A stretch of DNA of 64,000 nt from Xanthomonas arboricola (lineage in GTDB: Bacteria > Pseudomonadota > Gammaproteobacteria > Xanthomonadales > Xanthomonadaceae). Numbering within the stretch: the first letter of the stretch is position 1; each line of letters starts with the position of its first letter. A model generated the notes under the pieces. The model made no database searches and was not told the origin of the DNA. It saw only the letters and a program-made list of their open reading frames with translations. The stretch spans positions 1,116,001-1,180,000 of the forward strand of contig NZ_MIGY01000001.1 in NCBI RefSeq assembly GCF_002940665.1, written 5' to 3'. Shown one piece after another: positions 4,028 to 63,812 of the stretch. The translations under genes and the position numbers were made by a program.

Positions 4028-7000
4028 CTACTGGTCGTACAGCGAGGTCAACGGCAACTGGATCTCGCATTCCAGACGTGTATCGCTGAGCTCGTAACGC
4101 GTCTGTGCGCCGTGGCTGTACGGCAAGGCTTTTTCGATCAGGCGGCGGCCGAAACCGCCCGCCTGGTCGCGATCGTTGCGTCGTTGCCGGCTGGCGCCTT
4201 CTTCGATCCACGACAGTACCAGATGCGCCGAGGCATCGTTGTTGGACACCACGTCCCAGCGAACCGACAAGGTACCGGTCTCTACCGCCAGTGCCCCATG
4301 CTTGAGCGCATTGGTGGCCAGTTCGTGCAAGGCCAGCGCCAACGTCTGCACAGTGGACTTGCGCAGCGCCACATCCGGGCCATCCACCACGATGCGCTGT
4401 TGATCGGGCTCGGCGCCGAGTGCATCCAGCTCCATGCGCAGCAGTGCGCCGATGGTGGTGGGCACGTTGTCCGACTGCGACAACAGCCCTTGCACACGCG
4501 ACAATGCAGAGAGCCGGTCATCGAACCTGCCGGCGAATTCCGGCATGCTGTGGCTGGTCTGGACGGTCTGCTTGGCGACCGACTGCACCACGGTGATCAG
4601 ATTGCGGGTGCGGTGCTGCAATTCGCTGACCAGCACGCGCTGCTCGTCCTGCAGACGGCGCAGATTGTCCGATTCGGTCGAGGTTCCCAGCCACTCCAGC
4701 ACCTGGCCGCGCTCGTCCAGCACCGGCGCGCTGCGCGTATGGAACCAGCGGTAGCGGTCCTCGGCTGCATTGAACAGGCGGTGCTCCACATCCAGCCCGC
4801 CGGTGCGCACGCTGTCGTGCCAGGCATTCAAGGTCAGTTCGCGCTCGTCCGGATGCACCGCCTGCAGCCAGCCCAGCTCCAGGCTCTGGCCATCGCGTTG
4901 CCCGGTATACCTGGACCATTGCGGGCTGGACCAGGTCCAGCGGCCGCCGTCGAGCGAGCGCCACACCAATTGGGGGATGCCTTCCATCAAGGTGCGCAGG
5001 CGCTGCTCGCTGCTGCGCAACGCGCGCTCGGCGCGCGTCAGCGGGGTGACATCCATGAAGGTCAACACCGCCCCGCCGATGAAGTTGTTGACCGTGCGGT
5101 ACGGCAGCACGCGCACCATGTAGCGCGCGCGGGTAGCGGGGTTTTCCACTTCGCGGTCCAGTACCGCCAGCGTACGGATCACCCGACGTAAATCGTCCTG
5201 CAGCTCGTCGTAGCTCACGTGCAGCTTGATGTTGCTGATCGGCCGGTGGATATCGCTTTCCACCAACGGCAGGATATCGGTGACGGCGGGGGTGAAGTTG
5301 GTGACGCACAAGTCGTTATCCAGAAACACGGTGGCGATCTGGGTGCTTTCCAGCAGGTTCTTCAGATCGCTGTTGGCATGCGCAAGTTCCTGCACGCGGT
5401 GGGCCAGCTCGCCGTTGACCGTGGTGACTTCCTCGTTGACCGACTGCAGTTCTTCCTTGGAGGTTTCCAGTTCCTCGTTGGCGCTCTGCAGTTCTTCGTT
5501 GAGCGACTGATACTCCTCGTTGGAAGACTTGAGCTCCTCGTTGGTGCTTTCCAGCTCCTCGATCATCGACTGCAGCCGCTCGCGCGTCATGCGCAGCTCG
5601 TTCTCCAATGCCCGCACGTGCGCGTTGTCGGACACCCTATCTTTCGGCGGTGCCAGCTCGGCCAGTTCGCGCGCTTCCACTTCCTGGAACAACACCACAT
5701 AGCCGCGCGGCACCTCCGAATCCGAAGTCGGCTCCACGAACAGATCCACTGCCAAGGTCGCCGCATCCTCGTGCATCTGGATGCCCTTGGCCTGCACCGG
5801 CGCCATGTCCGCTTCGGCACGGCTGAGCGCGCTGCGCAACTCCAGCCGCAGGTCGCGGTGAACGAGGTTGAGCAGGTTGAGACTGGGCGCACCGCCGCCG
5901 GGACGGATGAAACGCCCGGCCTGCGAAGAGAAGTGCAGCACATCGAAATGTTCGTCCAGCACCGCATAGGCCGGTGCATAGCGATCGGCGATGCGCTCGC
6001 CGGCACGCACCAGTGCATTGCTGGCACTGCGCTGCTGGCGGGTGGCCGCCGGCGCATGGCCGTCGGGTCCGAGCGAAGACGACGGGAAGGTCGCATGCAT
6101 GCGGCTGTCGGCATCGATCTTCTGGAACACGCGGAAGCTGCGCTCCACCGGTGCGAACAACTTGGCATGCCGCGAGACGTTCTCGGCGTTGCCCAGGAAC
6201 AGATAGCCGCCCGGCTTGAGTGCGAAGTGAAACACCGGGATCACCCGATTCTGCAGCTCGGCATCCAGGTAGATCAGCAGATTGCGGCACGACACCAGAT
6301 CCAGCCGCGAGAACGGCGGGTCCTTGACGATGCTGTGCTGCGAGAACACGCACAGCTCGCGCAGCTGCTTGCTCACCACATAGGTATCGCCTTCCTTGAC
6401 GAACCAGCGCTGCAGGCGCTCCGGTCCCACATCGGCAACGATGCTGGACGCATAACGCCCTACCCGTGCGATGGCCAGGGCCCGCCCGTCGATGTCACTG
6501 GCAAAGATCTGGATGCGCGGTGCCACGTCCAGCGTCTGCGCATGCTCGCGCAACAGCATCGCCAGCGAATACGCCTCTTCGCCAGTGGAACAGCCCAGTA
6601 CCCACACCCGCAGGTGGTCGCCTGGCTGCTTGCCCTGGAACAGGCGCGGAATCACCTGCTGCTCCAGAAACTCGAACTCGCGACGGTCGCGGAAGAACTG
6701 GGTCACGCCGATCAGCAGATCGTTGAACAGCAGCAGCGGCTCGTCGAAGCGGCCGCGCAGCTGCTCCAGATACTGTTCCAGCGTGTCCACCTGGACTACC
6801 TGCATGCGTCGCTGTACGCGGCGCAGAAACGTGGCGCGCTTGTACCCGTGGAAATCGTGGCCGGTGGCGTTGCGCAGGATGCTGGCGACCTGGCCGAGCT
6901 GGTCGTTTTCGCTGCCCTTGCGCACACCTACCGGCGCCGGATGACCGAAGCGGTGGTAGCGCCGCATATGCGCGGCGATGCGTGCGGCCACGCGCGGCAG

Positions 7001-7591
7001 CGGCAGGATGTCGTCGCTGATGGCGGCCGGGTTGCCGGCACTGCGCAGATCCATGCCGTGCAACGACGGGTCGTCTACCGCCAGTGCCAGACCGCCGCAT
7101 TCCTTGATGGCGGCGGTGCCCAGGGTGCCGTCGCCATCGAAGCGGCCCATGATCAGGCCGACCACGTTGCCGTCCTGGTCGTGCGCCATCGAAACGAAGA
7201 AGCTGTCGATCAGGCCGTGATCGCGGGCTTGCTCCAACGGACGCAGCCGCAGCTGGCCTTCTTCCAGGGTCACCAGCGTCTGGCTGGGCGGCAGGTAAAT
7301 GCGTCCGGGATGCAGCGTATCGCCATCCTCCGGTGCCAGCAGCAGGCTGGATTGCGGCCCGAGCAACTCGCGCAGGCGCGGCTCGTCCAGCAAATGGCGA
7401 TCGCGCAGCAACAGCATGACCACCAGATTGGGCGCGCCGGCGACCGCGTCCAAAAGTTCGGCCAGGCGCGTGGCATCCAGGCCGTCGGCACCGACACCGA
7501 GAATGAACAACGGCGGTGGCGCCACGGCGTCGTGGGCAGGGGTCGCTGCCGTGTCGTCGCAGGAGGTGTCGTCGTCGGTCATTGCAGCCAT
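4028..7591 (-). CDS. CheB/CheR/PAS/HWE hybrid signalling histidine kinase
   Basis: About 1187 residues; the start is uncertain among MAAM (used here), MTDDD and an upstream TTG. Domains in order: a CheB-like methylesterase domain (~25-215), a CheR-type methyltransferase (~230-490, with SAM-binding GCSTGEEAYS and SCRNLLIYL), a long Glu/Leu coiled coil (repeats of EELxSxNEE, ~690-760), two PAS segments, and a C-terminal HWE kinase (ELQHRTRNLI H-box, LHELATNALKHG N-box, SWIEEG). Such proteins autophosphorylate in the cytoplasm and pass phosphate to a separate receiver; the lone receiver at 7790 and the sigma-54 regulator nearby are candidate partners. The CheB catalytic Ser position reads Gly (GVGADG), so the esterase part is probably inactive. 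Confidence 0.92.
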   Translation of the reverse strand: MAAMTDDDTSCDDTAATPAHDAVAPPPLFILGVGADGLDATRLAELLDAVAGAPNLVVMLLLRDRHLLDEPRLRELLGPQSSLLLAPEDGDTLHPGRIYLPPSQTLVTLEEGQLRLRPLEQARDHGLIDSFFVSMAHDQDGNVVGLIMGRFDGDGTLGTAAIKECGGLALAVDDPSLHGMDLRSAGNPAAISDDILPLPRVAARIAAHMRRYHRFGHPAPVGVRKGSENDQLGQVASILRNATGHDFHGYKRATFLRRVQRRMQVVQVDTLEQYLEQLRGRFDEPLLLFNDLLIGVTQFFRDRREFEFLEQQVIPRLFQGKQPGDHLRVWVLGCSTGEEAYSLAMLLREHAQTLDVAPRIQIFASDIDGRALAIARVGRYASSIVADVGPERLQRWFVKEGDTYVVSKQLRELCVFSQHSIVKDPPFSRLDLVSCRNLLIYLDAELQNRVIPVFHFALKPGGYLFLGNAENVSRHAKLFAPVERSFRVFQKIDADSRMHATFPSSSLGPDGHAPAATRQQRSASNALVRAGERIADRYAPAYAVLDEHFDVLHFSSQAGRFIRPGGGAPSLNLLNLVHRDLRLELRSALSRAEADMAPVQAKGIQMHEDAATLAVDLFVEPTSDSEVPRGYVVLFQEVEARELAELAPPKDRVSDNAHVRALENELRMTRERLQSMIEELESTNEELKSSNEEYQSLNEELQSANEELETSKEELQSVNEEVTTVNGELAHRVQELAHANSDLKNLLESTQIATVFLDNDLCVTNFTPAVTDILPLVESDIHRPISNIKLHVSYDELQDDLRRVIRTLAVLDREVENPATRARYMVRVLPYRTVNNFIGGAVLTFMDVTPLTRAERALRSSEQRLRTLMEGIPQLVWRSLDGGRWTWSSPQWSRYTGQRDGQSLELGWLQAVHPDERELTLNAWHDSVRTGGLDVEHRLFNAAEDRYRWFHTRSAPVLDERGQVLEWLGTSTESDNLRRLQDEQRVLVSELQHRTRNLITVVQSVAKQTVQTSHSMPEFAGRFDDRLSALSRVQGLLSQSDNVPTTIGALLRMELDALGAEPDQQRIVVDGPDVALRKSTVQTLALALHELATNALKHGALAVETGTLSVRWDVVSNNDASAHLVLSWIEEGASRQRRNDRDQAGGFGRRLIEKALPYSHGAQTRYELSDTRLECEIQLPLTSLYDQ

Positions 7592-7789
7592 CGCATCAAC
7601 GGCGCCGGGCGTGAGGCGCAATCGTCAATGATGGCGCAAACCTGCCTCTACTGCTACGCGGCGTCTGCGTGATACAGCTGCCTTGCGCGGACCGGTTCTG
7701 GAAGCGCCTGCTTACGCGCGGCGTTAACCGACGCAGCGCGCACTATGGCTTGCGCGTCGCCAGACAGCGCTACCGCTCTAGGAGTCCCC

Positions 7790-10418: not shown

Positions 10419-10631
10419 TAGTCGTTCTCCTGCCTGTGGTCATGACCCACGCTAGGCCGGCATGCATTGCAGAGCAGTGAACGAAGCTGTGCGATGGCGT
10501 GAAGCACCCCTCGAATGCGCACGCAGCGCGTCGTCAACACACGCGCTGCCGACATCACCTAGCCCGCACGTTGACGTTTGCGGACGCACACTGCCACTCA
10601 TTGTGATGCGTCACACCGTCAGGAGAGCAAC

Positions 10632-11498
10632 ATGCCCGTACCCAACTACCCACGCCCGCCGTTCAAACCGCAGCAGCAGAGCTTTCCGGGGCGTACCGAA
10701 AAAATGGATCCGCGCCCGGACCACGGCGAAGACAGTTACGTCGGCCATGGGCAGCTTGCCGGCAAACGTGCGTTGATCACCGGTGGAGACAGCGGCATCG
10801 GCGCGGCGGTGGCGATCGCGTACGCCCGCGAGGGCGCCGACGTGGCGATTGCCTATCTCCCCGAGGAGCAGGAAGACGCCGCCAGGATCGGCGCATTGAT
10901 CGAAAAGGCAGGCGTCAAGGCATTGCTGGTGGGCTGCGATATCAGCGACCCTGCCCAGGCTGCAGCATTGATCGAAGAGGTCGACCGCAACTTCGGCGGC
11001 CTGGATATCCTGGTCAACAATGCCGCCTATCAGAAGTATTTTCAGCGCTTCGAAGACATCACCCTGGACGAATGGCGCAAGACGTTCGATACCAACGTGC
11101 ACGCCGTGTTCCACCTGGTGCAGTTGTCGGTGCCGCTGATGAGCGACGGCGGCTCCATCATCAATACTGCCTCGGTGCAATCCAAGAAACCGACGCCGAA
11201 CATCCTGCCGTATGCCGCCACCAAGGGCGCGCTGGCCAATCTGACGATCGGCCTGGCAGGCGTGTTGGCCGACAGGCACATCCGCGTCAACGCGGTGCTG
11301 CCAGGCCCGATCTGGACGCCGTTCATTCCTGCCGGCATGGATGAGGAGTCGGTGGAAAACTTCGGCGGTCAGACGCCGATGGGGCGCCCCGGGCAGCCGG
11401 TGGAACTGGCATCGGCGTATGTGATGCTGGCAGCCGACAATGCCAGCTACACCTCGGGCACGTTGCTGACCATTGCCGGCGGCGCGGCCACGCTGTAA
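10632..11498 (+). CDS. Short-chain dehydrogenase/reductase (YghA-like)
   Basis: 288 residues; ATG five bases after AGGAGAGCAAC. An N-terminal extension (~40 residues, Pro-rich, YPRPPFKPQQQ) precedes a classical SDR: cofactor motif TGGDSGIG, NNAA, and the catalytic pair in YAATK. The extension and GDSGIG motif match the YghA/general-stress SDR subgroup that reduces aldehydes or ketones with NAD(P)H. It is divergent from a small hydrophilic gene and lies within a group of stress-type genes. Substrate unknown. Confidence 0.93.
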   Translation: MPVPNYPRPPFKPQQQSFPGRTEKMDPRPDHGEDSYVGHGQLAGKRALITGGDSGIGAAVAIAYAREGADVAIAYLPEEQEDAARIGALIEKAGVKALLVGCDISDPAQAAALIEEVDRNFGGLDILVNNAAYQKYFQRFEDITLDEWRKTFDTNVHAVFHLVQLSVPLMSDGGSIINTASVQSKKPTPNILPYAATKGALANLTIGLAGVLADRHIRVNAVLPGPIWTPFIPAGMDEESVENFGGQTPMGRPGQPVELASAYVMLAADNASYTSGTLLTIAGGAATL

Positions 11499-11531
11499 CG
11501 CCACCCTACGCTGCGCTTGTGCGCAAAACCC

Positions 11532-11772
11532 GCCTCGATCCAGCGCCGTGCCGATGTGCAAACCGGATGCGTGCTGGTCGATGGCAACTGTATCCGCAGC
11601 GTCGGCCAGAACAGCCTGCGCGAAGAGATTGCGGTGGTCCCGCAGGAGACCGCATCGCATCGGTAACGCAGAAAGGCCGCGTGGTCGAAGACGGCACCTG
11701 GCACAGCTACGTGGACTCACGTGGTGTATCTGAAGGCCTGTGGCAGCGCCAGGCTGCCCGATTCGAATCGCT
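11532..11772 (+). pseudogene. Remnant of ABC exporter ATPase domain
   Basis: Two fragments in different frames. The first (11532 to the TAA near 11667) reads like the start of an exporter nucleotide-binding domain after Walker A: VLVDGNCIRSV, NSLREEIAVVPQET (the Q-loop region). The second, in another frame from 11651, reads like the extreme C-terminus of the same domain: GRVVEDGTW...GLWQRQAARFE (usual pattern GRIVEQGTH...LWxRQ). The signature motif, Walker B and the whole membrane part are gone. This is a decayed ABC transporter gene; no function is expected. Confidence 0.65.
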
Positions 11773-11964
11773 TACACCTGGCGCGCTGTGGCAACCGCCT
11801 GGCGATAGGATTGCCTGGCATCAGTCGATGCAGACGATGCGCGGCATACAGCACGTAGAGCGCACACGCCAATCATACCCATGACGGCAACAGGCAGCCG
11901 AAGCTGCCTGTCTGTCTGCTCGCACCACACCTCATCCAGCGTTCAATTGGCAGATTTCTGCCGA

Positions 11965-33786: not shown

Positions 33787-35889
33787 ATGAGACGCATCCT
33801 GTCGCTACCGTTGTTCTGGAAAATCCTGATGCCGGCCGCGGTGGCGATCCTTTGCCTCTCGAGCTATGTGGCCTTCAGTACGCTGGTCTTTCACCGCAAC
33901 AACGACCGCCTGGAAGCGGTACGCGACGTGCATTTTCCGATGCTCGACGCCATGACGCGCAACGTGGCTGCGCTGGACAAGCTCATCAACGGGCTCAACG
34001 GCGCCGCTGCCGCCGGCGATGCCGACATGCTGGCGGCCACCAAGCCGGTGGCCGACGAGATCCACGCCTCCTACGTGAAACTGCAGACATCCGATCCCGC
34101 CAATGCGACGGAGCTGGCACGCCTGGGCAACCAGTTCGATCAGTACTACAGCCTGGCGCACGGCGTGGCCGCCGCGTTCGTGGAGCAGCGCGAACCCGAT
34201 GCGGCGCAGATGAGCGCCATGGCACCGGCACTGGAAACCTATCGCACCACCCTGACCGCCATGCAGAAGCGCGCCGATGCACGCTTCCGCGGCACCGTGC
34301 AGGAAGCAGTGGACAGTTCGGTGGCGGCAAGCATCGGCGGGCTGGTGCTGGGCCTGGTCGGTGCGGTGCTGTGCATCGCCTTCGGCTGGATCGTGGCACG
34401 CGCCATCACCCAGCCGCTGCACCGTGCGGTGGGCATTGCGCATGCGGTGTCGTCGGGCAAGCTGGACAACCGCATTTCGATCGACCGCAACGACGAGGTC
34501 GGCCAACTGCTGCAGGCAATGGACAGCATGCAGCGTCAGCTGCGTCGCGTGATCCAGGCGCAGACCGACATGGGCGACAAGCACGAAGCCGGCATGGTCA
34601 GTCACCGTATCGCCGAGCAGGACTTCCCCGGCGAATTCGGCAGCATGGTGCGTGCCAGCAACGCGCTGGTGTCCAGCCATATCGCGGTGACGATGCAGAT
34701 CGTCGCATTGACCGAACGCTATGCCGCCGGCGACCTGTCGCAGCAGCTGGAGCCGTTGCCGGGCGAGAAGGCGGTGATCAGCCAATCGATCAACGATGTG
34801 CGGGCCAGCCTGTTGTCGATCAATGGCGAGATCAAGCGGCTGGCATCGGCCGCAGCGGCGGGCGACTTCGGCGCACGTGGCGACGAGACCGCGTTCGAGC
34901 ATGATTTCCGCCAGATCGTGGTGGACCTCAATCATCTGATGAGCAGCTCGGACAAGAGCCTGGGCGCGGTGTCGCAGGTATTGCAGGCGATTGCCGGCGG
35001 CGACCTGACCACGCGCATGCACGGCGACTTTGCCGGCGTGTTTGCGCGCATGCGCGACGATGCCAACACCACGGTGGACCGCCTGACCGACATCGTCGGG
35101 CGCATCCAGCATTCCTCGTCGGAGATCGATACCGCGGCCGGCGAAATTGCCGCCGGCAATCAAGACCTGTCGCGGCGTACCGAACAGCAGGCGGCCAGCC
35201 TGGAAGAAACCGCCGCCTCGATGGAAGAACTCACCTCCACCGTCAAGCAGAACGCCGAACACGCGCTGCAGGCCAACGAACTGGCGCGCACTGCGGCCAG
35301 TGTGGCCTCCAAGGGTGGCGAGGTGGTCAGCCAGGTCGTCGGCACCATGTCGGGCATCGAAACCTCCTCCAAGAAGATCGCCGAGATCATCAGCGTCATC
35401 GATGGCATCGCGTTCCAGACCAATATCCTGGCCTTGAACGCTGCGGTGGAAGCCGCACGTGCCGGCGAACAGGGCCGCGGCTTTGCGGTGGTGGCCTCGG
35501 AGGTGCGCACGCTCGCGCAGCGTTCGTCCGCTGCGGCCAGGGAGATCAAGGAGCTGATCGACGCCTCGGTGGGCAAGGTGGCCGAAGGCTCGGTGCTGGT
35601 GCACAAGGCCGGCACCACCATGACCGAGATCGTCGCCAGCGTGAATCGGGTCACCGACATCATGGGCCAGATCACCGCCGCATCCAGCGAGCAATCGGCG
35701 GGCATCGAACAGGTCAACCAGACGGTGATCCAGATGGACGAAACCACCCAGCAGAATGCAGCGCTGGTGGAAGAGGCCATGGCCGCGGCACGGGCAATGG
35801 AGAAGCAGTCCAGCACCCTGACCCAGCTGGTCTCGCAGTTCCAGCTGGAGCCTGCCGGCGTAACGCAGCGGGAAACAGAGCTCGCATAG
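33787..35889 (+). CDS. Methyl-accepting chemotaxis protein (chromosomal)
   Basis: 700 residues from ATG ([15 protein letters not shown]). TM1 near 8-27, helical periplasmic sensor domain to ~185, TM2 ([20 protein letters not shown]), HAMP, a second HAMP-like region ([20 protein letters not shown]) and the conserved signalling hairpin ([20 protein letters not shown]). It signals to CheA/CheW. It ends the porin/PBP/MCP operon and is followed by an intrinsic terminator. The prophage chemoreceptor at 59584 is a clear relative in the cytoplasmic half. Confidence 0.95.
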
Positions 35890-43489: not shown

Positions 43490-43536
43490 TGGTGGGCCCA
43501 CCAGGATTCGAACCTGGAACCAAAGGATTATGAGTC
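43490..43536 (-). other. Prophage attachment site (attL): 3' part of a CAT-anticodon tRNA
   Basis: On the minus strand the segment reads from the anticodon loop (CTCATAA) through the T-arm (GGTTCGAATCC) to GGGCCCACCA, i.e. the 3' 47 bases of a Met/Ile2-type tRNA; the 5' half is missing and sequence diverges at 43537. The gene's own terminator remains on the left, so the chromosome is on the left and the element on the right. An intact tRNA copy is expected at the far end, beyond the window. Confidence 0.85.
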
Positions 43537-45230: not shown

Positions 45231-45710
45231 ATGCCTGCCCTTCCCCCGCCCCATACATATGCCCAATTACTCGGGCGAGTCAATCACGATCCAGTACCAC
45301 TCGATCTGCCACTAAGCGCAATCCGGATACAGCTCGGCTTCCCCTCGCCCGCCGAGGACTTCCAAGACGACGAGCTCGATCTGAACCGGGTGCTGATCCG
45401 CAATCCGCCGGCTACGTTTCTGTATCGGGCCGAGGGCTGGAGCATGATCCTGGCCGGCGTTTGCGACGGGGACATCCTGGTCGTTGACCGCTCAGTGAGT
45501 CCGATCAATGGCGACATGGTGCTCGCCATCTGGGATGGTAATCAGCCGGTCTGCAAGATTCTTCAAGTCGCGGTCGACCACGTCGAGCTCCACAGCCGCA
45601 GCCCACACTGCACGCCGATTGTCCTGGCGCCAGGCACAGAGGTCGAGGTGTTCGCGGTCGTAGGCTTGGTCCGCCAGGTCACGCGCGCTCATTCCCGCGC
45701 TGGCCGCTGA
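45231..45710 (+). CDS. umuD: UmuD-like LexA-family autoprotease
   Basis: 159 residues. The cleavage region IQLGFPSPAEDF matches the Cys-Gly site of E. coli UmuD (here Leu-Gly), the catalytic Ser is in GWSMILAGVCDGD, and the catalytic Lys in PVCKILQ. RecA-stimulated self-cleavage activates translesion synthesis with UmuC. The stop overlaps the umuC start (TGATG). No canonical LexA box was seen upstream. Confidence 0.93.
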   Translation: MPALPPPHTYAQLLGRVNHDPVPLDLPLSAIRIQLGFPSPAEDFQDDELDLNRVLIRNPPATFLYRAEGWSMILAGVCDGDILVVDRSVSPINGDMVLAIWDGNQPVCKILQVAVDHVELHSRSPHCTPIVLAPGTEVEVFAVVGLVRQVTRAHSRAGR

Positions 45711-46996
45711 TGTTCGCGTTGATCGACGGCAACAACTTCTACGCCAGTTGCGAGCGGGTGTTCCAGCCCGAGCTGCGCGGCAGGCCGTTGGTCGTGCTGA
45801 GCAACAACGATGGCTGCGCCATTGCTCGATCGGACGAGGCCAAGGCGCTAGGCGTGACGATGGGACAGCCCATCCACAAGGTGCCCACGCAGATCCGCCG
45901 GGGGCTGGCGTTGCGCTCCGCAAACTTCGGTCTGTACGGCGACATCGCCTCGCGCATCGGCGTGATCCTTCGCCAAGCCGCGCCACGTGTGGAGGTGTAC
46001 TCCATTGACGAGTCGTTCCTCGACCTGACCGGGATCCGCGATCGCCGGCAGCTCGCGGTCGACCTACGCGAGCGCGTTCACCAGTGGACTGGCATCCCGA
46101 ACTGCATCGGCATCGCGCCGACGAAGACCCTGGCCAAGTTGGCCAACCGGGTCGCCAAGGATGCGGCGCGCAAACCGGGCAGCTACCCGGCCGATCTGGC
46201 CGGCATCTGTGACTTGGCAGCGCTCAGTGCAAGCGAGCTCGATGCCGTGCTGCGGGCCACGTCAGTTGGCGACCTCTGGGGCGTTGGTAGGCGCTGGAGC
46301 GCCAGGCTGCAGGCACGCGGTGTGTATACGGCAGCGGATCTGCGGGATGCAGCTGCAGACGACCTGCTCGCGGAGTTCGGAGTGGTGATGGCGCGCACGC
46401 AGCGCGAGCTGCAGGGTCACGCCTGCCTCGAGCTTGAAGAGGTCGAGCCAGACCGGCAGCAAATCATGGTCAGCCGATCGTTTGGAACATGGGTAAGCGA
46501 CCCGCAAGATATGTCAGAGGCGCTGGCCACCTTCGCCATGCGTGCCACCGAGAAGCTGCGCGCTCGCGGATTGACGTCGAGCGCGATTGGCATCTTTGCC
46601 GAAACGGACTCGTTCAAGCCGGGCGTACCGCAGCACAACCCATCACGCACCGCCCCACTCGCCTCCGCCACCTCTGACAGCCGCATCGTGCTCACGACTG
46701 TACGCCGGCTGTTCCAGGGCTTCATGCGAGAAGGCTTCGCCTACAAAAAGGCCGGCGTGTGCCTGATGGATCTAGCCAAGCCTGAAGACCTGAAGGGCGA
46801 CCTATTCACTCCGGCTCGCATCGGCGACGAGAAGCTGATGAGCGCCTTGGACGCTATCAACCGACGCTTCGGGCGGGATACGGCCGGCCTCGGTGCAAGC
46901 GGGTGGCAGAACTCTCCAGCATGGGCCTCGCGGCAAGAGCTCTTGTCGGGACGCTTCACTACCTCACTGGCAGATCTTCCGCGCGCCACGTGCTGA
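45710..46996 (+). CDS. umuC: UmuC-like Y-family DNA polymerase
   Basis: 428 residues. Catalytic acidic residues are in FALIDGNNFY and YSIDESFLDLTG; the palm and finger motifs (SNNDGCAIARSDEAKALGV) and the little-finger domain follow. It carries out error-prone DNA synthesis past lesions with UmuD'. In a prophage it is cargo that may raise mutation under SOS. Confidence 0.95.
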   Translation: MFALIDGNNFYASCERVFQPELRGRPLVVLSNNDGCAIARSDEAKALGVTMGQPIHKVPTQIRRGLALRSANFGLYGDIASRIGVILRQAAPRVEVYSIDESFLDLTGIRDRRQLAVDLRERVHQWTGIPNCIGIAPTKTLAKLANRVAKDAARKPGSYPADLAGICDLAALSASELDAVLRATSVGDLWGVGRRWSARLQARGVYTAADLRDAAADDLLAEFGVVMARTQRELQGHACLELEEVEPDRQQIMVSRSFGTWVSDPQDMSEALATFAMRATEKLRARGLTSSAIGIFAETDSFKPGVPQHNPSRTAPLASATSDSRIVLTTVRRLFQGFMREGFAYKKAGVCLMDLAKPEDLKGDLFTPARIGDEKLMSALDAINRRFGRDTAGLGASGWQNSPAWASRQELLSGRFTTSLADLPRATC

Positions 46997-47860: not shown

Positions 47861-48271
47861 ATGACATGGATTGTTGAGCTGTTGGAGCAAGCTCAAGAAT
47901 TCTTCGACGAGCTGGCGCCAGATGAACAAGTGCGGGTCGCAGGGGCTATGCGAATGCTCGAAGCGCATGGGCCTACGCTGGGTCGACCGCACGTAGACCT
48001 ATTGAAGGGCTCACGCCACAAGAACTTGAAGGAGCTTCGTGTTCAGTGTGGAGACAAGCAGTTCCGAATCCTCTTCGCTTTCGACCGCAAACGCAGCGCG
48101 GTTTTGCTGCTCGGTGGCGACAAGCTTGCCTATGGTGTTGACCGCTTTTACGTAGATCTCATTCCTATTGCGGAAGATCTGTTCGATGCCCATCTAGAGA
48201 GGACCGCAGCGGCCGCTACATCGGTCAAGAAGACCGCTGCCAAGAAGACAAGGGGAAGAAAACCACCATGA
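47861..48271 (+). CDS. HigB/RelE-type toxin of a TAC module
   Basis: 136 residues. N-terminal RelE-like fold of the phage Gp49/HigB family: IVELLEQAQEFFDELAPDEQ, then LKELRVQCGDKQFRILFAFD and AVLLLGGDKLAYG. Such toxins cut mRNA on ribosomes. The C-terminus has an unusual Lys/Ala-rich tail (TSVKKTAAKKTRGRKP). Its stop overlaps the antitoxin start (ATGA). Confidence 0.9.
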   Translation: MTWIVELLEQAQEFFDELAPDEQVRVAGAMRMLEAHGPTLGRPHVDLLKGSRHKNLKELRVQCGDKQFRILFAFDRKRSAVLLLGGDKLAYGVDRFYVDLIPIAEDLFDAHLERTAAAATSVKKTAAKKTRGRKPP

Positions 48272-48822
48272 CCACCATGAACCTCGATGAGTTCCTGTCG
48301 AGCAGAGGTTTGAAGGGAAGTGCCGACGTAGAGCAGGCATTTCATGAAGCGATTCAGAATCTGCCCCTGGCCGCACTGCGAGCCAATGCGAATCTCACGC
48401 AGAAGGAGATTGCCGGTCTGCTTGGCAAGTCTCAGGCAGCAGTCTCAAAATTTGAAGGTCGCGGAGATTTTTTGATCTCGACGCTGTTTCAATACGTGAA
48501 GGCACTACGTGGCAGCATAGATCTCAGCATCAGTGTGGGTGAAGGTATGTTTACCCTCGCCCCGATCGATGATGAAGGGGAAATCTATTTCAAGTTGATG
48601 AGAAAAGCTGCCTCGGAAGCTATCAATTCAGGCCCAAGGCAGAGGGACGTGTTCACACTTCGCAGCTTGACGCAAAATCCTGAGTTGCGCTCAGTGCCAC
48701 GGCGCCACGTCGCATGGTTGAGTGACCATTCGCTCGAAAATTACACAAGCGCTTCCGACGCAATTTCCGACGTATTCACGAAACTAGCAGCGAACGATGA
48801 AGCTCAGCCCCTTGCAGCTTGA
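48268..48822 (+). CDS. HigA-type antitoxin with C-terminal extension
   Basis: 184 residues. HTH_XRE DNA-binding domain at ~45-90 (LTQKEIAGLLGKSQAAVSKF), then about 85 extra residues containing hydrophobic patches (FKLMRKAASEAI, VFTLRSLTQN). Antitoxins of TAC systems carry such a chaperone-addiction tail. Toxin first, antitoxin second matches the HigBA order. The next gene overlaps its last 26 bases. Confidence 0.9.
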   Translation: MTTMNLDEFLSSRGLKGSADVEQAFHEAIQNLPLAALRANANLTQKEIAGLLGKSQAAVSKFEGRGDFLISTLFQYVKALRGSIDLSISVGEGMFTLAPIDDEGEIYFKLMRKAASEAINSGPRQRDVFTLRSLTQNPELRSVPRRHVAWLSDHSLENYTSASDAISDVFTKLAANDEAQPLAA

Positions 48823-49366
48823 TACTCCTCAGTACCCTGTGGTGAGCATTCGCGCCGTACCGGGCGTGTCAGAGGAAATGCTAGATGCACCGCTGCCTGT
48901 GTCTGTGCGAGCGCAGGTACTGTACGACTCAGATTTGTCCCACATGGCGTCCCTTTCGATTGAGCAAAACGACGAGACCCAACCCTACGTGGTCTCGATA
49001 CAGGTTTTGACAAGCTTTCGTATCGACATCGAACGGTGTCGAGAAGCCTACAAAGCTCTAAACCCTGAAATTGTGGCCGTCAACATCGCAAGAATTCTGT
49101 ACGCGAGCGCGCGCGAAATACTTGCGATGGTAAGTGCACGTGCGCCTTACGGAAGCGCCATGCTGCCGGGCATGACAATTGAGGCATCCGATGTCGACAT
49201 CAAATTTGAGACTGGCAAAGTCGACTTCATTCTTGAGCACGCCTTTGGGCTAGATCCCCAAAGGATCCAAGCTTTACGCCAGCAAGCACTTGCAGAAAAA
49301 TCAGAATCCGAGGTGGCCGAAGAAGCCCCGAAGAAGAGGGTAAAAAAGCTAGCCGTAAAACTGTAA
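48797..49366 (+). CDS. SecB-like chaperone of the TAC module
   Basis: 189 residues. The C-terminal half matches SecB: ALNPEIVAVNIARILYASAR then EILAMVSARAPYGSAMLPG, corresponding to SecB's NxLFPYARExIxxLVxRGxFPxLxLxP pattern; the first half has SecB-like strands (VSVRAQVLYDS, YVVSIQVLTSF). The last 25 residues are charged. Position after HigB-HigA indicates the solitary SecB-like chaperone of a toxin-antitoxin-chaperone system, which protects the antitoxin. Confidence 0.82.
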   Translation: MKLSPLQLDTPQYPVVSIRAVPGVSEEMLDAPLPVSVRAQVLYDSDLSHMASLSIEQNDETQPYVVSIQVLTSFRIDIERCREAYKALNPEIVAVNIARILYASAREILAMVSARAPYGSAMLPGMTIEASDVDIKFETGKVDFILEHAFGLDPQRIQALRQQALAEKSESEVAEEAPKKRVKKLAVKL

Positions 49367-49408: not shown

Positions 49409-50107
49409 CTATGTGGCAAGGCGATTTCGTGCAATGTCTGCATACTGTGCAGTGAGCTCGATGCCCGTTGCCGCGAAGCCTTCGAGCTCGGCTGCGAGTA
49501 ACGTGGTTCCCGAACCAGCAAACGGGTCGAGCAAGCGACCGCCCGACTCGCAGATCCTCACCAATTGCCGCATCAACTCGGTCGGCTTGCCGGTCAGGTG
49601 ATGCTTGTCGGCCTTGCGCACCGACTCACGGATGACCCCAGGCAGCACCGGCGCACGACGATCCAGCGGCATGTTGCCCTTGCTGCCCCACACGATGTAT
49701 TCGGCCTGGTTGCGGAAGCGCCCCAACTGCGGTCGCACGCCTTCGGTCTTGTCCCAGACGGTGATGCCGCGCCAGGTGAAGCCGGCGATCTGCAGCGCGT
49801 CAGTGGTCAGCGGCAGCTGACGCCAGTCGGTGAACAGCAGCACTGGGGCGCCATCCTTGAGCACCCGCGCGCATTCGGATAACCACAGGTGCATCCATTT
49901 CAGGTGCGAGCGCTGGTCGCGCTCGTCGCCAACGAAGTCGGCATGCCCACCATCCCGGCAATACTTTGTCGACGGCGGCCGGGCCCGGGCAGCGGCGGTC
50001 AGGCCGCCACTCGCGTAAGGCGGATCAGTGATCAGCGCGTCGAACGAATTCGCTTCGAGCGTGGGCAGGATGGTCAGGGCGTCGCCCTGCAGGAGCTGGT
50101 TTTTCAT
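49409..50107 (-). CDS. DNA methyltransferase (DPPY type)
   Basis: 232 residues. Catalytic motif DPPY in ALITDPPYASGG and SAM-binding FAGSGTT near the C-terminus (LLDPFAGSGTTLLAAELEG) give the beta-type order (motif IV before I). It methylates adenine or cytosine amino groups in DNA, probably to protect phage DNA from host restriction. Its start lies inside the overlapping Com-like gene. No restriction enzyme is adjacent. Confidence 0.92.
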   Translation of the reverse strand: MKNQLLQGDALTILPTLEANSFDALITDPPYASGGLTAAARARPPSTKYCRDGGHADFVGDERDQRSHLKWMHLWLSECARVLKDGAPVLLFTDWRQLPLTTDALQIAGFTWRGITVWDKTEGVRPQLGRFRNQAEYIVWGSKGNMPLDRRAPVLPGVIRESVRKADKHHLTGKPTELMRQLVRICESGGRLLDPFAGSGTTLLAAELEGFAATGIELTAQYADIARNRLAT

Positions 50108-57897: not shown

Positions 57898-58385
57898 TGG
57901 TCACGCGCCTGATCATCCTGATGGCGCTGATTGCAGTGCTCGTTGGTGGCTGCGTGTGGCAAGAGCAGCGCGTCAACACCGCGCAACGCGAACGCAAGCA
58001 AGCTCTAGACGCAAAAGCTGCCGCTATCGCCGAGCGCGACAGCGCAAAGAGTTCCACAAAGGTCGTTGTCGAGTACGTCGACCGCGTGCACATCGTGCGC
58101 GAGGCCGGCGCCACCATCACCCGCGAGATCCCGATCTATGTCACCCAGAAAGCAGACGCTGCTTGCGCTATCCCTGCTGGCTTTGTGCGGTTGCATGACG
58201 CCGCCGCCTCGGGCAACCCTGCCGGGCCGCCCACCGGAGATCCTGATGCGCCGGCCGCCGGCATTACGCTCTCTGGCATTGCCGGTACCGTCGCCGACAA
58301 CTACACCAGCTGCCACGCCACCGCCGCGCAGCTGAGCGCGCTGCAGGACTGGATCGATCTGCATCTACCGGCAGCGGCTCCATGA
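57897..58385 (+). CDS. Rz-like i-spanin (LysB-type)
   Basis: 162 residues: an N-terminal membrane anchor (MVTRLIILMALIAVLVGGCV) then a periplasmic coiled coil (EQRVNTAQRERKQALDAKAA). Inner-membrane half of the spanin pair that fuses membranes at lysis. Coupled to the endolysin (TGATG). Confidence 0.85.
   Translation: MVTRLIILMALIAVLVGGCVWQEQRVNTAQRERKQALDAKAAAIAERDSAKSSTKVVVEYVDRVHIVREAGATITREIPIYVTQKADAACAIPAGFVRLHDAAASGNPAGPPTGDPDAPAAGITLSGIAGTVADNYTSCHATAAQLSALQDWIDLHLPAAAP
58138..58335 (+). CDS. Embedded Rz1-like o-spanin lipoprotein
   Basis: 65 residues in another frame inside the Rz gene: MSPRKQTLLALSLLALCGCM with a lipobox (LALCGC), then a Pro-rich short chain (PPPRATLPGRPPEILMRRPP). 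Exactly the embedded lipoprotein partner of Rz; too small and overlapping to be easily annotated. Confidence 0.82.
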   Translation: MSPRKQTLLALSLLALCGCMTPPPRATLPGRPPEILMRRPPALRSLALPVPSPTTTPAATPPPRS

Positions 58386-58801
58386 TCAAGCCCGCCAGCC
58401 TGCGCGCGCATCTGGTCGCGGCCTTGCCTGACCTAGCGCGCGATGCCGACCGGCTGCTGGTATTCATCGACGCCGGCAGCCTGGTCAGCACGTTCCAGCC
58501 GGGGCTGTCGTTCGAGTACCAGTACACGCTCAACCTGATCCTGACCGACTACGCCGGCCACCCAGACAACGTGATGCTGCCGCTGCTGGAATGGGTGCAG
58601 GTCAATCAGTCCGAGCTGCTGTCCAATCCTGCGCGCCGTGGTGAGATCGCTTTCGAGGCCGACATCCTCGCCAACGATGCCGTGGATCTGTCGATCAAGT
58701 TGCCGCTGACCGAACGCGTGATCGTGACCGCGAAAGACGGCGGCGGCTATGACATCACCCATGCGCCCGAGCCGGTGATCGATCCCACATGGATGAGCTG
58801 A
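58382..58801 (+). CDS. R: P2 gpR-like tail completion protein
   Basis: 139 residues (MIKPASLRAHLVAALPDLAR start), overlapping Rz by ATGA. LNLILTDYAGHPDNVMLPLL and NDAVDLSIKLPLTERVIV are typical of P2 R. Confidence 0.93.
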   Translation: MIKPASLRAHLVAALPDLARDADRLLVFIDAGSLVSTFQPGLSFEYQYTLNLILTDYAGHPDNVMLPLLEWVQVNQSELLSNPARRGEIAFEADILANDAVDLSIKLPLTERVIVTAKDGGGYDITHAPEPVIDPTWMS

Positions 58802-59238
58802 CCGCGCTGGAGAACTGGGCCGCTCCGCTGCTGGCCCGCCTGCAGCCCGGTGAACGCCGCAGCCTGGCACGCAAGATCGGAACGGAACTGAGACGCTCGC
58901 AGAGCCAGCGCATCGGCAAGCAGCAAGCGCCCGATGGCTCACCTTATGCACCGCGCAAGCAGCAGCTGCGGCAGAAGTCCGGGCGCGTCAAACGCGCGAA
59001 GATGTTCGCCAAGTTGCGGCAGGCCAAGTTCTTCAAGGTCAGCGCCAGTCCCAACGCTGTGAGCGTGGGGTTTGTGGGGCGTGTGTCGCGCATTGCGCAC
59101 GTGCATCAAGACGGGACGACCGAACGTGTGCGAAAGAATGGCCCCAAAGCGCGATACGAGAGGCGTGTGCTACTCGGTTTTTCAACTGACGATCAGCAGA
59201 TCGTGCGCGAGCACTTCTTGAGTCATTTAAGTCAATGA
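58789..59238 (+). CDS. S: P2 gpS-like tail completion protein
   Basis: 149 residues (MDELTALENWAAPLLARLQP start), overlapping R. RSLARKIGTELRRSQSQRIG and VGFVGRVSRIAHVHQDGTTE match P2 S. In P2 the next genes are V and W; here they are not found. Confidence 0.93.
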   Translation: MDELTALENWAAPLLARLQPGERRSLARKIGTELRRSQSQRIGKQQAPDGSPYAPRKQQLRQKSGRVKRAKMFAKLRQAKFFKVSASPNAVSVGFVGRVSRIAHVHQDGTTERVRKNGPKARYERRVLLGFSTDDQQIVREHFLSHLSQ

Positions 59239-59583
59239 GGTCGCCAAGTCATACGAATTACAGTCTGAGCGAAGTGCGTTGGCCATCATTGATGGTAACG
59301 CGAACATTCAAAGTGCCGAAATTCTGACGCGAATGGCAGGTGCGGTTAAATGGTGACTACGAGTAACCACATGAAGCGCTGACCGGACCGTACTTTGTCG
59401 TCTTCACCATTCCGGTGCTTGGCTGTGGCCACGCTTCTCCAAAATTTCACGCCAGGCTCTAAAGATTAGAGCCTGTAGGCCGATCTAGTATCAATGCCCA
59501 GGCATAACGCGTCGGCAGAGTTCTGAACCAACTGTTCTTGGCCTATGGGTCATGCCCCCCCCTACCTGCATTGGGATCTCGTA
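59239..59583. other. Cargo junction after S
   Basis: No full gene. A 39-codon open stretch follows S (EVAKSYELQSERSALAIIDG) but lacks a start; it may be a fragment of a lost gene. The later half holds the sigma-28-type promoter of the chemoreceptor. Confidence 0.45.
59460..59486 (+). promoter_or_regulatory. Sigma-28 (FliA)-type promoter for the prophage chemoreceptor
   Basis: TAAA (59460-59463), exactly 15 bases, then GCCGATCT (59479-59486); the consensus is TAAA-N15-GCCGATAA. It is about 98 bases upstream of the chemoreceptor ATG and on the same strand. Confidence 0.78.
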
Positions 59584-61824
59584 ATGAATTTTACACGCCG
59601 CCTCCGTATCGGAGCGCGACTAGCAACCGGCTTTGGCCTGCTCCTTGCGCTCATCGTTTTGACTAGCACCGTGGCACTTGAAGGTAATAAAACGCAGAGC
59701 CGAGAACTCAACCGCGTTGTGGATGTCGGCTTGGCGAAGATGGTGGCACTCACCACGCTACTGGACATCAATAACGACATGATTGTTGCGCGTCGAGAAA
59801 TGACACTTCTGCGCGATCCTGCAAGTTCAGGAGCCTATCAGGCGCAGATCAAAACGCTAGTTGGGCGCTATGAGCTGACTTGGAAGAATTACAATGAGAA
59901 GTTCCCTGCGCCGGATGCGGCTGCCCGTGGTCGGCGCACCCGCATTGAGCAACTGCGTGCCATTGCGATGCCAATCAATCGACAAATAGGCGAGCGGCTG
60001 GAGGCTGGGGATTACGATGGCGCGGTGGCCATCACTCTAAACAAAGCAAGACCTGCGATGCAGGCGTGGAACAAAGCAATCTCCGAGAGCGTGGCAGAGC
60101 AAAAACGTAATATTGCAACATCGGCCGCCCAAGCAACTCAGGCTAACAAACGTAGCAACGCGATGATTTGGATATTTGGCGCTTTAAGTCTACTGATTGG
60201 AGGCTTGGCGGCATGGATGATCACGCAGAGCTTGACGAAGCCGCTATCGCAAGCACTTGCATCCATTACTGCCGTCGCGCGAGGAGATTTGAGCGTAAAG
60301 AGCAATGATGCAACTGGCGATGAGATTGGCCAGATGCTGAGAGCGTCCGACGACATGGTAGCGATGCTGCAGCGGTACTCTGACCAAACAGCGACGATGA
60401 TTCACAAGCACGCCGGCGAAGACATCAGCTACCGGATGCCTGAATCCTTTCCAGGGATCTATGGAGAGCTGGCACGGGGCATTAATACGATGATGTTTGA
60501 GCACCTTGATGCCATTGTCGATTCCATGGCAGTACTTGAAGAGTATGCGCGAGGAGATCTGCGCCGGGATGCTCGCCGCCTGCCTGCTACGCGAGCGTTC
60601 TTGCATGAATCTATGGACGCAGCTAAAGCTAGCTTGATGGCTATCAATACGGAAATTAAACGATTGGCTCAATCTGCGGCAAATGGCGACTTCGCCGCGC
60701 GGGGTAATACGGATCACTTCCAGCATGATTTCCGAGTGATGGTCGAAGATCTGAATTCCATGATGCATATCAGCGATACAAATCTCGGTAAGCTGTCAGA
60801 GCTTCTCGGGGCGATTGCGCAAGGCGACCTTACTGCACGGATGGATGGAGAATTTCTGGGTGTCTTCGCCACATTGCGTGATGACGCCAACATGACCGCG
60901 CGTCAGCTTGCGACCATTGTTGGCCGGATTCAGCAGTCAGTCACCGCGATCAACTCTGCGGCTGGAGAAATCGCGGCAGGCAATCAGGATCTTTCCCAGC
61001 GCACCGAACAGCAGGCAGCCAATCTGGAGGAAACTGCCGCCTCTATGGAGGAATTGACATCAACCGTGCGTCAAAACGCAGAGCACGCGCGTCAAGCGAA
61101 TCAGTTGTCAATCGGTGCGGCCGAAGTGGCTTCCGAAGGAAGACAGACAGTGGCTAAGGTAGTTGAAACGATGGCTGGCATCGAGGTGGCCTCGCGTAAG
61201 ATTGGAGATATTAACTCGGTTATCGATGGCATCGCATTCCAGACCAACATTCTTGCGCTAAACGCGGCCGTCGAAGCTGCTAGAGCTGGGGAGCAGGGCC
61301 GTGGCTTTGCTGTTGTTGCAACTGAAGTACGCACTCTTGCCCAGAGGGCTACCATTGCGGCAAAGGAGATCAAGGACCTCATCGACGATTCTGTGGGGCG
61401 CGTAACTGAGGGCTCACAGCTGGTGAACAAAGCCGGCGAGACTATGGTTGAAATCGTGGCAAGTGTGCAACGGGTCACCAACATCATGGGTGAGATTTCT
61501 GCTGCGTCCCAAGAGCAGTCTGCAGGTATCGAGCAGGTTAATCAGACCGTTACGCAGATGGATGAAGCCACACAGCAAAATGCTGCATTGGTTGAAGAAG
61601 CAACCGCTGCTGCCCGGTCAATGGAGGAGCAGGCTAACCAGCTGAGTGATGCAGTATCGGTTTTCAAGGTTGAGAGCGCTGCCTCAGCGATCAGTTCATC
61701 TACAAAACCCCTTAGTTCCGCCTCACCTCGTATCACACCGTCAGCCAAAGAAAAATTAGCCTGGCAAGGATCCTCCAAGGTAAACGCTAGACTTCCAAGC
61801 ACTACAGAGTGGCAGAACTTATAA
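59584..61824 (+). CDS. Methyl-accepting chemotaxis protein inside the prophage late operon
   Basis: 746 residues from ATG ([20 protein letters not shown]); a 13-codon longer frame is less likely. TM1 12-32, four-helix-bundle sensor domain to ~190 ([20 protein letters not shown]), TM2 ([20 protein letters not shown]), HAMP, a second HAMP-like region ([20 protein letters not shown]) and intact signalling hairpin ([20 protein letters not shown]). The very C-terminus EWQNL resembles the CheR-binding pentapeptide but has Leu at its end. It should feed the host CheA pathway. Base use is more AT-rich than the flanking phage genes, and it has its own promoter and terminator, so it was acquired as a unit. 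Confidence 0.93.
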
Positions 61825-61843
61825 GGCGGCTATAAACATTAAG

Positions 61844-61877
61844 GCCCGGTTGCCTTCGCGACCGGGCTCTTTAATTT
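61844..61877 (+). terminator. Terminator of the prophage chemoreceptor
   Basis: Ten-pair stem (GCCCGGTTGC, loop CTTC, one G-T pair) followed by TCTTTAATTTT, 19 bases after the stop. Confidence 0.88.
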
Positions 61878-62281
61878 TCGCAGTCTGTCCGAACAAGCTA
61901 CCCAGGGGCGAGAACGTCCTGTACATGCAGACGCCGCTCTAGTTAGATATGTATAGGTGCAACAAGGTTTGTCTCCGGCAATGACTCAAAACGCGCAGAC
62001 CCAGACGAAGATGTTCATGCCAGTTGGTAACCAGGCGACAGAGGGCGATTCTTACAAAGCCGGCAGATAGTTAGGCGCCGCCTTCTCAGATGTCTGTAAT
62101 TCCAAAGATTAACAACGTGGTTAACTGATCGCGAGACGTGATGGCTAGGCGCTTTAAGGTCGTGCCTGAAAAATGGATTTACATTTTTCACGCGCGTACC
62201 AACCAGCTTTACAAAGCAATTTAATTGGCTCGATCACGAGAACCGGGGACCCTAGTCAGGTCCTCTCTTTCTTTCCGAGCA
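61878..62281. other. Cargo junction before J
   Basis: About 400 bases with no supported gene. A 29-codon frame (61981-62070, MTQNAQTQTKMFMPVGNQ start) has no ribosome-binding site. No remnant of V or W was recognised. Confidence 0.45.
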
Positions 62282-63172
62282 ATGGCATCTTTCACCGCAG
62301 TCGATCTATCGAAACTTCAAGCTCCAGACCTGATCGAAGCTCTGGACTTCGAGACGATCTTCGCTGATGCATTCGCACAGTTTCGTCGGCTCATGCCGGA
62401 GTTCTCCGCGCTCACGGAAGCCGACCCGGTCTACAAGCTCCTGCAGCTGTTTGCCGCCCGTGAGCTGCTGATCCGCCAGCGTGCTAATGACAAGGCACAG
62501 CAAACCATGCTGGCCTTCGCCACCGGTACCAACCTCGATCACCTCGGCGCGCTGTTCGGCGTCGCTCGCTTGGTGCTGGACCCCGGTCAACCCGACGCCG
62601 GCGTCGCGCCGGCCTTTGAGACCGACGTGGACTTCCGCCGCCGCATCCAGCTGGCGCCCGAGGGCTTCAGCGTTGCCGGCCCAGAAGGCGCGTACATCTA
62701 TCACGCGCTCAGTGCTGCCGCCGATGTCATGGACGCCAGCGCGACCAGCCCCGCACCTGGGCAAGTGCTGGTCACCGTGCAATCGCGCACCGGCGATGGC
62801 ACCGCGCCGCAGGCACTGCTCGATCAAGTGGCCGCCATGCTCACCGATGACGACGTGCGGCCCATGACAGACGAAGTCGCGGTGCAGAGCGCTCAGATCG
62901 TCCCGTACGCCATTCGTGGGCGCATCTACACCTATGCCGGGCCTGACTCAGCGGTAGTCATGCGCGAAGCACTGCGCAGCCTTCAGGCCTATCTCGCCGA
63001 AGCGCACCGCATCGGCCGCGACGTTCCGGAATCCGCCATCAAGGCCAAGCTGTTCGCCGATGGCGTGCAACGCATCGAGCTGGACTCGCCTGCAGCCGAC
63101 ATTCGGATCAGCCGCACGCAGGCCGCCTACTGCACCGCGATCGACATCGTGCACGCCGGCATCGATGAGTAA
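62282..63172 (+). CDS. J: P2 gpJ-like baseplate protein
   Basis: 296 residues from ATG (MASFTAVDLSKLQAPDLIEA). LREL-type motif ARELLIRQRANDKAQQTMLA and PGQVLVTVQSRTGDG match P2 J, the baseplate wedge. Complete. Its stop overlaps gene I by eight bases. Confidence 0.95.
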   Translation: MASFTAVDLSKLQAPDLIEALDFETIFADAFAQFRRLMPEFSALTEADPVYKLLQLFAARELLIRQRANDKAQQTMLAFATGTNLDHLGALFGVARLVLDPGQPDAGVAPAFETDVDFRRRIQLAPEGFSVAGPEGAYIYHALSAAADVMDASATSPAPGQVLVTVQSRTGDGTAPQALLDQVAAMLTDDDVRPMTDEVAVQSAQIVPYAIRGRIYTYAGPDSAVVMREALRSLQAYLAEAHRIGRDVPESAIKAKLFADGVQRIELDSPAADIRISRTQAAYCTAIDIVHAGIDE

Positions 63173-63812
63173 TTCACCGCTGCCGCCCAACGCCACGCCG
63201 ATGGAGCGCGCCCTGGCCGCCGTCACCGAGCGTCTGGAAGCGATCCCGCTGCCGTATCCAGACCTGTGGAACCCGGACACGTGCCCGGCCGGTCATCTGC
63301 CGTGGCTGGCGTGGACGCTATCGGTCGACGACTGGAAGGCCGACTGGAGCGATGCGGTCAAGCGCTCGCGCCTGCGCAGCGCCATGGCAATCCAGCGTCG
63401 CAAGGGCACCGCCAACAGCGTCCGCATGGTGGTCGCCTCTTTCGGGGGGGCAGTGACCATCCGCGAGTGGTGGCAGCAGCAGCCTCGGGGCCAGCCGCAC
63501 ACCTTCGAGCTGACGCTCACGCTCAACGGGTCCGATGGGCAAGCTGCAAGCGCTCGATTTGTCGATGAGGTCATCGCCGAGGTCGAGCGCACCAAACCCG
63601 TTCGCTCGCACTTTGGATTCGTGCAGGGGCTGCAAGCCACCGGCAACGTCTCGCTGGTCAGCGGTATTCGCATCATCAACTACCGCCGTCTGTCGATGAC
63701 GGCGCGGGGATTCGGCTTCGTGCAGGGGCTGCAAGCCACCGGCAACGTTTCGCTGGTCAGCGGTATTCGCATCATCAACTACCGCCGTCTGTCGATGACG
63801 GCTCAGGGATAA
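63165..63812 (+). CDS. I: P2 gpI-like baseplate/tail formation protein with duplicated C-terminus
   Basis: 215 residues from ATG (MSNSPLPPNATPMERALAAV). WLAWTLSVDDWKADW and VKRSRLRSAMAIQRRKGTAN are P2 I motifs. The last 33 residues (FGFVQGLQATGNVSLVSGIR...) occur twice in tandem, lengthening the tail end, where gpI meets the fibre. Confidence 0.93.
   Translation: MSNSPLPPNATPMERALAAVTERLEAIPLPYPDLWNPDTCPAGHLPWLAWTLSVDDWKADWSDAVKRSRLRSAMAIQRRKGTANSVRMVVASFGGAVTIREWWQQQPRGQPHTFELTLTLNGSDGQAASARFVDEVIAEVERTKPVRSHFGFVQGLQATGNVSLVSGIRIINYRRLSMTARGFGFVQGLQATGNVSLVSGIRIINYRRLSMTAQG
63618..63810 (+). repeat. 99-bp tandem duplication in gene I
   Basis: Copies start at 63618 and 63717 and differ at very few positions, so the event is recent; 33 codons, frame kept. 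Confidence 0.93.

Follow-up and report, generated by a model that had tools for sequence, protein, structure and literature searches.

How does a gene for a bacterial chemoreceptor come to lie among the tail genes of a phage, and what might it do there for the host? The question is posed by a 64,000-nucleotide stretch of Xanthomonas arboricola DNA (the window; contig NZ_MIGY01000001.1 of assembly GCF_002940665.1, positions 1,116,001 to 1,180,000), in which a single long open reading frame (ORF; 59545-61824) lies between the tail completion gene S and the baseplate gene J of a P2-like prophage and encodes a methyl-accepting chemotaxis protein (MCP; Table 1). Toxins, effectors and anti-phage systems are familiar kinds of phage cargo. 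An earlier note on this DNA took the receptor gene to stand where V and W should be; a point absent from it is that the S-J junction is itself a slot whose cargo varies, and that one such filling, xopJ4, has already been published. We consider it probable that this is a lysogenic-conversion slot, here occupied by a self-contained chemoreceptor unit that would feed into host chemotaxis.

What makes a junction a slot? Across the genus, J matches occur in 18 of 35 genomes; 23 J-bearing loci were fetched, 18 of which also gave S, with an S-J interval of 85 bp to 3.05 kb (window locus included) and a broken J in two (L085 and L087). The IMG/VR search confirmed 122 relatives of J, of which the best 80 were retained; with four MCP loci, this makes 84 measured loci, 12 without S or a usable J and 72 with an interval (70 after two duplicates were dropped). 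Some strains may be represented both in the genome set and in the IMG/VR set. The interval is empty (85-88 bp) in six of the 70 distinct IMG/VR loci and filled in 64, where it spans 654-5519 bp and holds 39 combinations of ORF clusters, the ORFs being mechanically called at a length of at least 100 amino acids, so that some may not be genes. In the 67 IMG/VR loci without this MCP, identity to the window protein runs at 0.87-0.97 along S and then at 0.60, 0.62 and 0.27 in its last three blocks; J stands at 0.97 in its first block. Judged from these blocks, the variable module begins inside the 3' end of S, taking its last ~44 codons. In Xanthomonas P2-like prophages, the cargo at the S-J junction thus varies from locus to locus, and the genes that fill this slot are quite different. 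A strong hairpin in the 60 nt before the J start was rejected as a general slot feature because z falls below -2 in only 16 of 43 dereplicated intervals (of 88; mononucleotide shuffles); the hairpin sequences also differ.

Does the receptor replace V and W, leaving a defective prophage? The order S-V-W-J, that of E. coli P2 and seen in Halomonas phage 4908, would favor this explanation, but both genes are intact and lie downstream: V (PF04717 plus the GpV apex motif) at C1:1181326-1181889, 3.0 kb past the J start, and W (PF04965) as the next gene, 3.6 kb past the J start. Among 97 J loci (79 from IMG/VR, 16 from Xanthomonas genomes, the window locus and Stenotrophomonas phage Smp131), V and W are both downstream of J in 80, and neither is found within 9 kb upstream of J in any; 11 loci end less than 4.5 kb after J, three show V only (L136, L148, L191) and three show neither in the fetched stretch (L105, L164 and L117, where V and W are absent from the 8.9 kb after J). 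In the position of V and W the window prophage thus differs from E. coli P2 and matches Smp131 (JQ809663; R-S-J-I-fibre-V-W-FI-FII), whose 86-bp S-J gap, unlike that of the window, holds no cargo. The chemoreceptor gene has been added without replacing either gene: the actual location of V and W refutes replacement, and the probability that we leave to it is negligible.

Is the gene a complete receptor? The protein has a signalling domain (MCPsignal, 1.6e-50) with an intact conserved hairpin tip, three HAMP-type domains (HAMP, HAMP_N3 and HAMP_2) and two hydrophobic segments, in the MCP order of first transmembrane segment (TM1), periplasmic sensor, TM2 and HAMP. The sensor is predicted by a structural model to be a four-helix bundle (4HB); the Pfam family 4HB_MCP_1 matches weakly (4.1e-5, below its cut-off). 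Translation probably starts at 59584 because the leader is conserved in a relative from X. arboricola pv. populi (G002) but frame-shifted before that ATG. This relative (loci L091 and L111) has a sensor 84% identical. Among significant matches to host receptors, the sensor reaches at most 28% identity, against 72-73% for the signalling half; the receptor would thus be a 4HB sensor unlike the host's joined to a host-like signalling half. The host genome has 11 CheW-domain matches. Base use is foreign: the third-position GC content (GC3) of the gene is 0.55, as compared with 0.73-0.89 in six phage genes and 0.79-0.93 in nine host MCPs. Completeness, a sensor domain and foreign base use had all been claimed from the letters of the window and all hold. 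A host MCP gene also lies in the window (34222-35862), ~8 kb left of attL, and is 56% identical to the phage-borne MCP over residues 169-714.

An assembly artefact is excluded, as S-MCP-J is also present in IMG/VR loci L116 and L117, and in L115 with two insertion sequence (IS) copies; MCP-J is found in X. arboricola pv. juglandis CFBP 2528. Scans with the sensor, which reach close relatives only, give two loci in genome contigs and four in viral contigs. A DNA search of phage records with the MCP gene returns nine, all Salmonella or Escherichia by name and none covering 80% of the query, and a sensor search returns two Salmonella records at 22%; these matches are likely to be host DNA because several are whole-genome contigs. 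In PHROGs, a single family matches strongly, phrog_8572 (8.2e-114, unknown function), with the signalling half as the best stretch; MCP-like proteins have therefore been clustered earlier from phage-derived records. Plasmids give four partial matches at 60-80%.

How would such a gene be expressed? The claim that it has its own promoter and terminator stands by motif only, and for a promoter of another type: no sigma-70 site was found (0 sites; shuffles 2.5), and a site in the leader fits the sigma-28 (FliA) consensus. The sigma-28-type pattern has four matches in the window at up to two mismatches (shuffles 0.38), and the leader site is the only exact one. Genome-wide, TAAA-N15-GCCGATNW has four matches, as compared with one in a reversed control; they include the MCP leader, a site 111 bp upstream of a CheW match and a further site within the prophage (TAAA-N15-GCCGATAA, C1:1192433-1192459, L082 2434-2460), near an opposite-strand helix-turn-helix (HTH) gene and perhaps due to chance. 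Allowing three mismatches to the full consensus gives 20 sites, as compared with 10 in the control; eight of the 20 lie in C2:757-858 kb, the region with both flagellin matches and five of the 11 CheW matches; one ends 108 bp before a flagellin match. At 26 scanned host MCP loci, some of which represent one gene and all with mechanically called starts, the best upstream sites have 4-8 mismatches, and L002, L004 and L010 exceed their own shuffles. The terminator-like hairpin belongs to a class whose number in the window is not above chance (four, shuffles 3.2), although this one has 11 pairs and lies ~20 bp past the stop codon. With conserved phage genes on either side, missing from relatives, with a base composition of its own and with a promoter and a terminator by motif, the unit would qualify as a phage moron.

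Has the unit moved? Over 9430 bp, L117 matches the window copy at 99.97% identity; beyond I the two differ. A second backbone, common to L115 and L116 (99.9% upstream), matches the window at about 94% before S. From S onward the identity to the window rises, to 100% in S, 99.0% in the 5' flank, 99.7-99.8% in the MCP gene, 98.0-98.2% in the 3' flank and 97.5-99.8% in J. Near-identity of S-MCP-J in backbones that differ by ~6% implies at least one transfer of the block from one backbone to another. For the fillings at large, exchange is rejected as a rule, the picture being mixed: cargo identity exceeds both flanks by more than two points in eight of 76 same-cargo pairs (clusters C0, C4, C10 and C12), and in many pairs the cargo is less alike than the flanks.

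Could the gene nonetheless be neutral baggage that entered by chance, through an IS or illegitimate recombination, and has no role in the lysogen? Some observations would favor this: the slot tolerates very different DNA, transposase genes occur in some other fillings and, in L115, the MCP cargo stands between two direct 1.23-kb elements (6415-7647 and 10629-11874; IS5-like, as we read the transposase) that have TTAA duplications, an arrangement that is composite-transposon-like in layout. However, the window copy is flanked directly by S and J, the IS pair is confined to L115, and its location at duplicated TTAA suggests later insertion; CFBP 2528 has one IS copy upstream of the MCP, and the 35 kb fetched from it showed neither R nor S. 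Also against baggage, there is no stop codon in the copies of the window, L110, L115 and L116, the L117 copy is identical in the gene, omega to the nearest relative is ~0.08, the promoter-like site is kept in all fetched copies of this gene (the relative in G002 has a weaker version, with five mismatches) and the block has spread to a second backbone. Chance entry without function is therefore unlikely in our view, and a self-contained chemoreceptor unit remains preferred; the slot, the anatomy of the unit, its intact frame, its constraint against a relative and one backbone exchange are all shown by the sequences.

What else does the slot carry? Thirty cluster proteins were compared with Pfam and ten with PADLOC, giving predicted functions. 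Defence-like fillings match Shedu (SduA, 2.3e-152), RT-Toprim I-C (3.7e-217), FRG/PDC-S15 (3.4e-81) and AbiU2 HEPN; a YopJ acetyltransferase (PF03421, 3.4e-52) forms a cluster of six loci; and Fic, Amidase_3, T5orf172, histidine kinase, response regulator and GGDEF domains also appear. The RT-Toprim and SduA fillings are in L101 and L147, and six loci (L143, L158, L160, L163, L166 and L167) carry signalling sets that combine PAS-histidine kinase, response regulator and GAF-GGDEF genes in different ways. No Pfam match at E 0.01 was found for 11 of the 30 proteins and no PADLOC match for four of the ten (L186, L134, L103 and L151). The anti-phage look of some fillings invites the thought that the receptor, too, serves the phage, e.g., by steering lysogens to new prey or blocking superinfection via the membrane or motility. 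Yet its complete chemoreceptor architecture and host-type promoter motif point to ordinary taxis, and we know of no MCP-based exclusion system, although the literature was not searched for one; service to the phage is thus a quite improbable explanation, and host taxis is the better one.

How does this slot compare with those already described? In X. euvesicatoria pv. perforans, the available text of two papers locates xopJ4 (avrXv4) in a P2-like prophage, with gpS on one side and gpJ on the other; this cargo comes and goes with the prophages, and a 92% identical prophage at the same location lacks the effector gene (PMC11573517, PMC12864420). Slot and prophage kind are the same as here, but the cargo is an effector rather than a receptor, and these texts treat one gene, not a general slot; the YopJ-family cluster (C4) may correspond to xopJ4. 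The antiviral hotspots of P2 and P4 in E. coli, that of P2 lying between gpA and gpQ by cos (Rousset et al., 2022, PMC9122126), are likewise small (about 1-5 kb), high-turnover loci between two conserved phage genes; the S-J slot differs in lying inside the tail genes rather than between A and Q, and in including effector, signalling and chemoreceptor genes. The main text of PMC9122126 does not contain "Xanthomonas". Effector and defence genes are reported in Peduoviridae prophages of P. syringae (PMC13182921), in whose available text "chemotaxis" and "methyl-accepting" do not occur. MCPs of X. arboricola vary by strain, and CFBP 2528 has four prophages (PMC4686621, PMC5003339); the site of a pathogen-specific MCP, of 733 amino acids as compared with 746 or 759 here, holds an integrase and phage proteins in one nonpathogenic strain (PMC4686621). 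The available text of both papers draws no link between an MCP and this prophage, and the open-licence PMC literature, as far as its texts were available, gave no report of a chemoreceptor in the S-J slot or of the slot's breadth. Among the closest known 4HB sensors are MCP2201 (citrate/malate) and PcaY_PP (aromatic acids). The locus is thus of a known phage cargo type, largely undescribed in Xanthomonas P2-like prophages, with an unusual filling.

Table 1. Positions of the cargo unit and its prophage surroundings in the window.
Feature	Position	Strand	Remarks
attL-like repeat	43490..43536	.	47 bp, 91% identity to partner C1:1201009-1201055
Gene R, tail completion, backbone flank	58382..58801	+	PF06891 6.8e-49
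Gene S, tail completion	58789..59238	+	PF05069 1.8e-41
Cargo filling of S-J slot	59239..62281	+	Variable interval; cargo identity 99.4-99.5%, against about 94% for the backbones upstream
Sigma-28 (FliA)-type promoter-like site	59460..59486	+	TAAAGATT-N11-GCCGATCT; motif match only
Chemoreceptor (MCP) gene	59584..61824	+	746 aa from preferred ATG; 759 aa from 59545
TM1, predicted 4-helix-bundle sensor, TM2	59584..60258	+	Sensor fold by model
Terminator-like hairpin after MCP gene	61843..61868	+	11 pairs, ~20 bp past stop
Gene J, baseplate flank	62282..63172	+	ATG at 62282; conserved from first codons; PF04865 1.4e-24
Gene I, baseplate flank	63165..63812	+	PF09684 3.9e-52

The prophage spans ~41.6 kb, has attachment (att) repeats at both ends, the right-hand one inside a tRNA-Met(CAT) gene outside the window, and contains an integrase-like ORF named from reading the sequence, with no Pfam match. 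L, R, S, J, I, V and W, recognized by Pfam and colinear with the P2-type structural order, make it P2-like (Peduoviridae). Genes resembling umuD and umuC (45231-46996; named by reading, no family search) belong to the prophage because they lie between attL and the structural genes. A Gp49/RelE-type gene, an HTH gene and a 189-amino-acid SecB-like ORF (own reading; no Pfam match) follow one another at 47861-49363, perhaps a toxin-antitoxin-chaperone module near the classical P2 hotspot position, and an N6/N4 DNA methylase gene comes next (49409-50107) at the left, Q-proximal prophage end. The 3' end of gene I (63600-63812) is a tandem repeat with a unit of ~34 residues (GFGFVQGLQATGNVSLVSGIRIINYRRLSMTA), and it is there that L117 diverges from the window.

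What would the unit of sigma-28-type promoter motif, receptor gene and terminator do in a lysogen? Transcription of the MCP gene would depend on the host flagellar sigma factor and occur when the flagellar genes are on; the receptor would enter the inner membrane and join mixed arrays via its host-like tip; and its new periplasmic 4HB-type sensor would feed the host CheW-CheA pathway, altering taxis and possibly benefiting the lysogen. A new taxis input, as proposed in the earlier note, is plausible from the complete architecture of the receptor. Recombination within the neighboring genes, R/S to the left and J/I to the right, may carry the unit between phage backbones. More broadly, we lean slightly toward the idea that Xanthomonas P2-like phages share an exchangeable tail-gene slot through which anti-phage, effector, two-component/GGDEF and chemoreceptor cargo circulates, the chemoreceptor being behavioral cargo under the flagellar sigma factor that redirects the swimming of the lysogen. 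Because it is short and lies between two conserved genes, the slot offers a place to look, genome by genome, for anti-phage and host-interaction genes not yet known. And since an intact receptor is paired with the promoter motif of swimming genes, infection could change where a bacterium swims: if so, directed movement would be among the traits that a bacterium can acquire by infection, through a phage-carried chemoreceptor wired to the host flagellar regulon.
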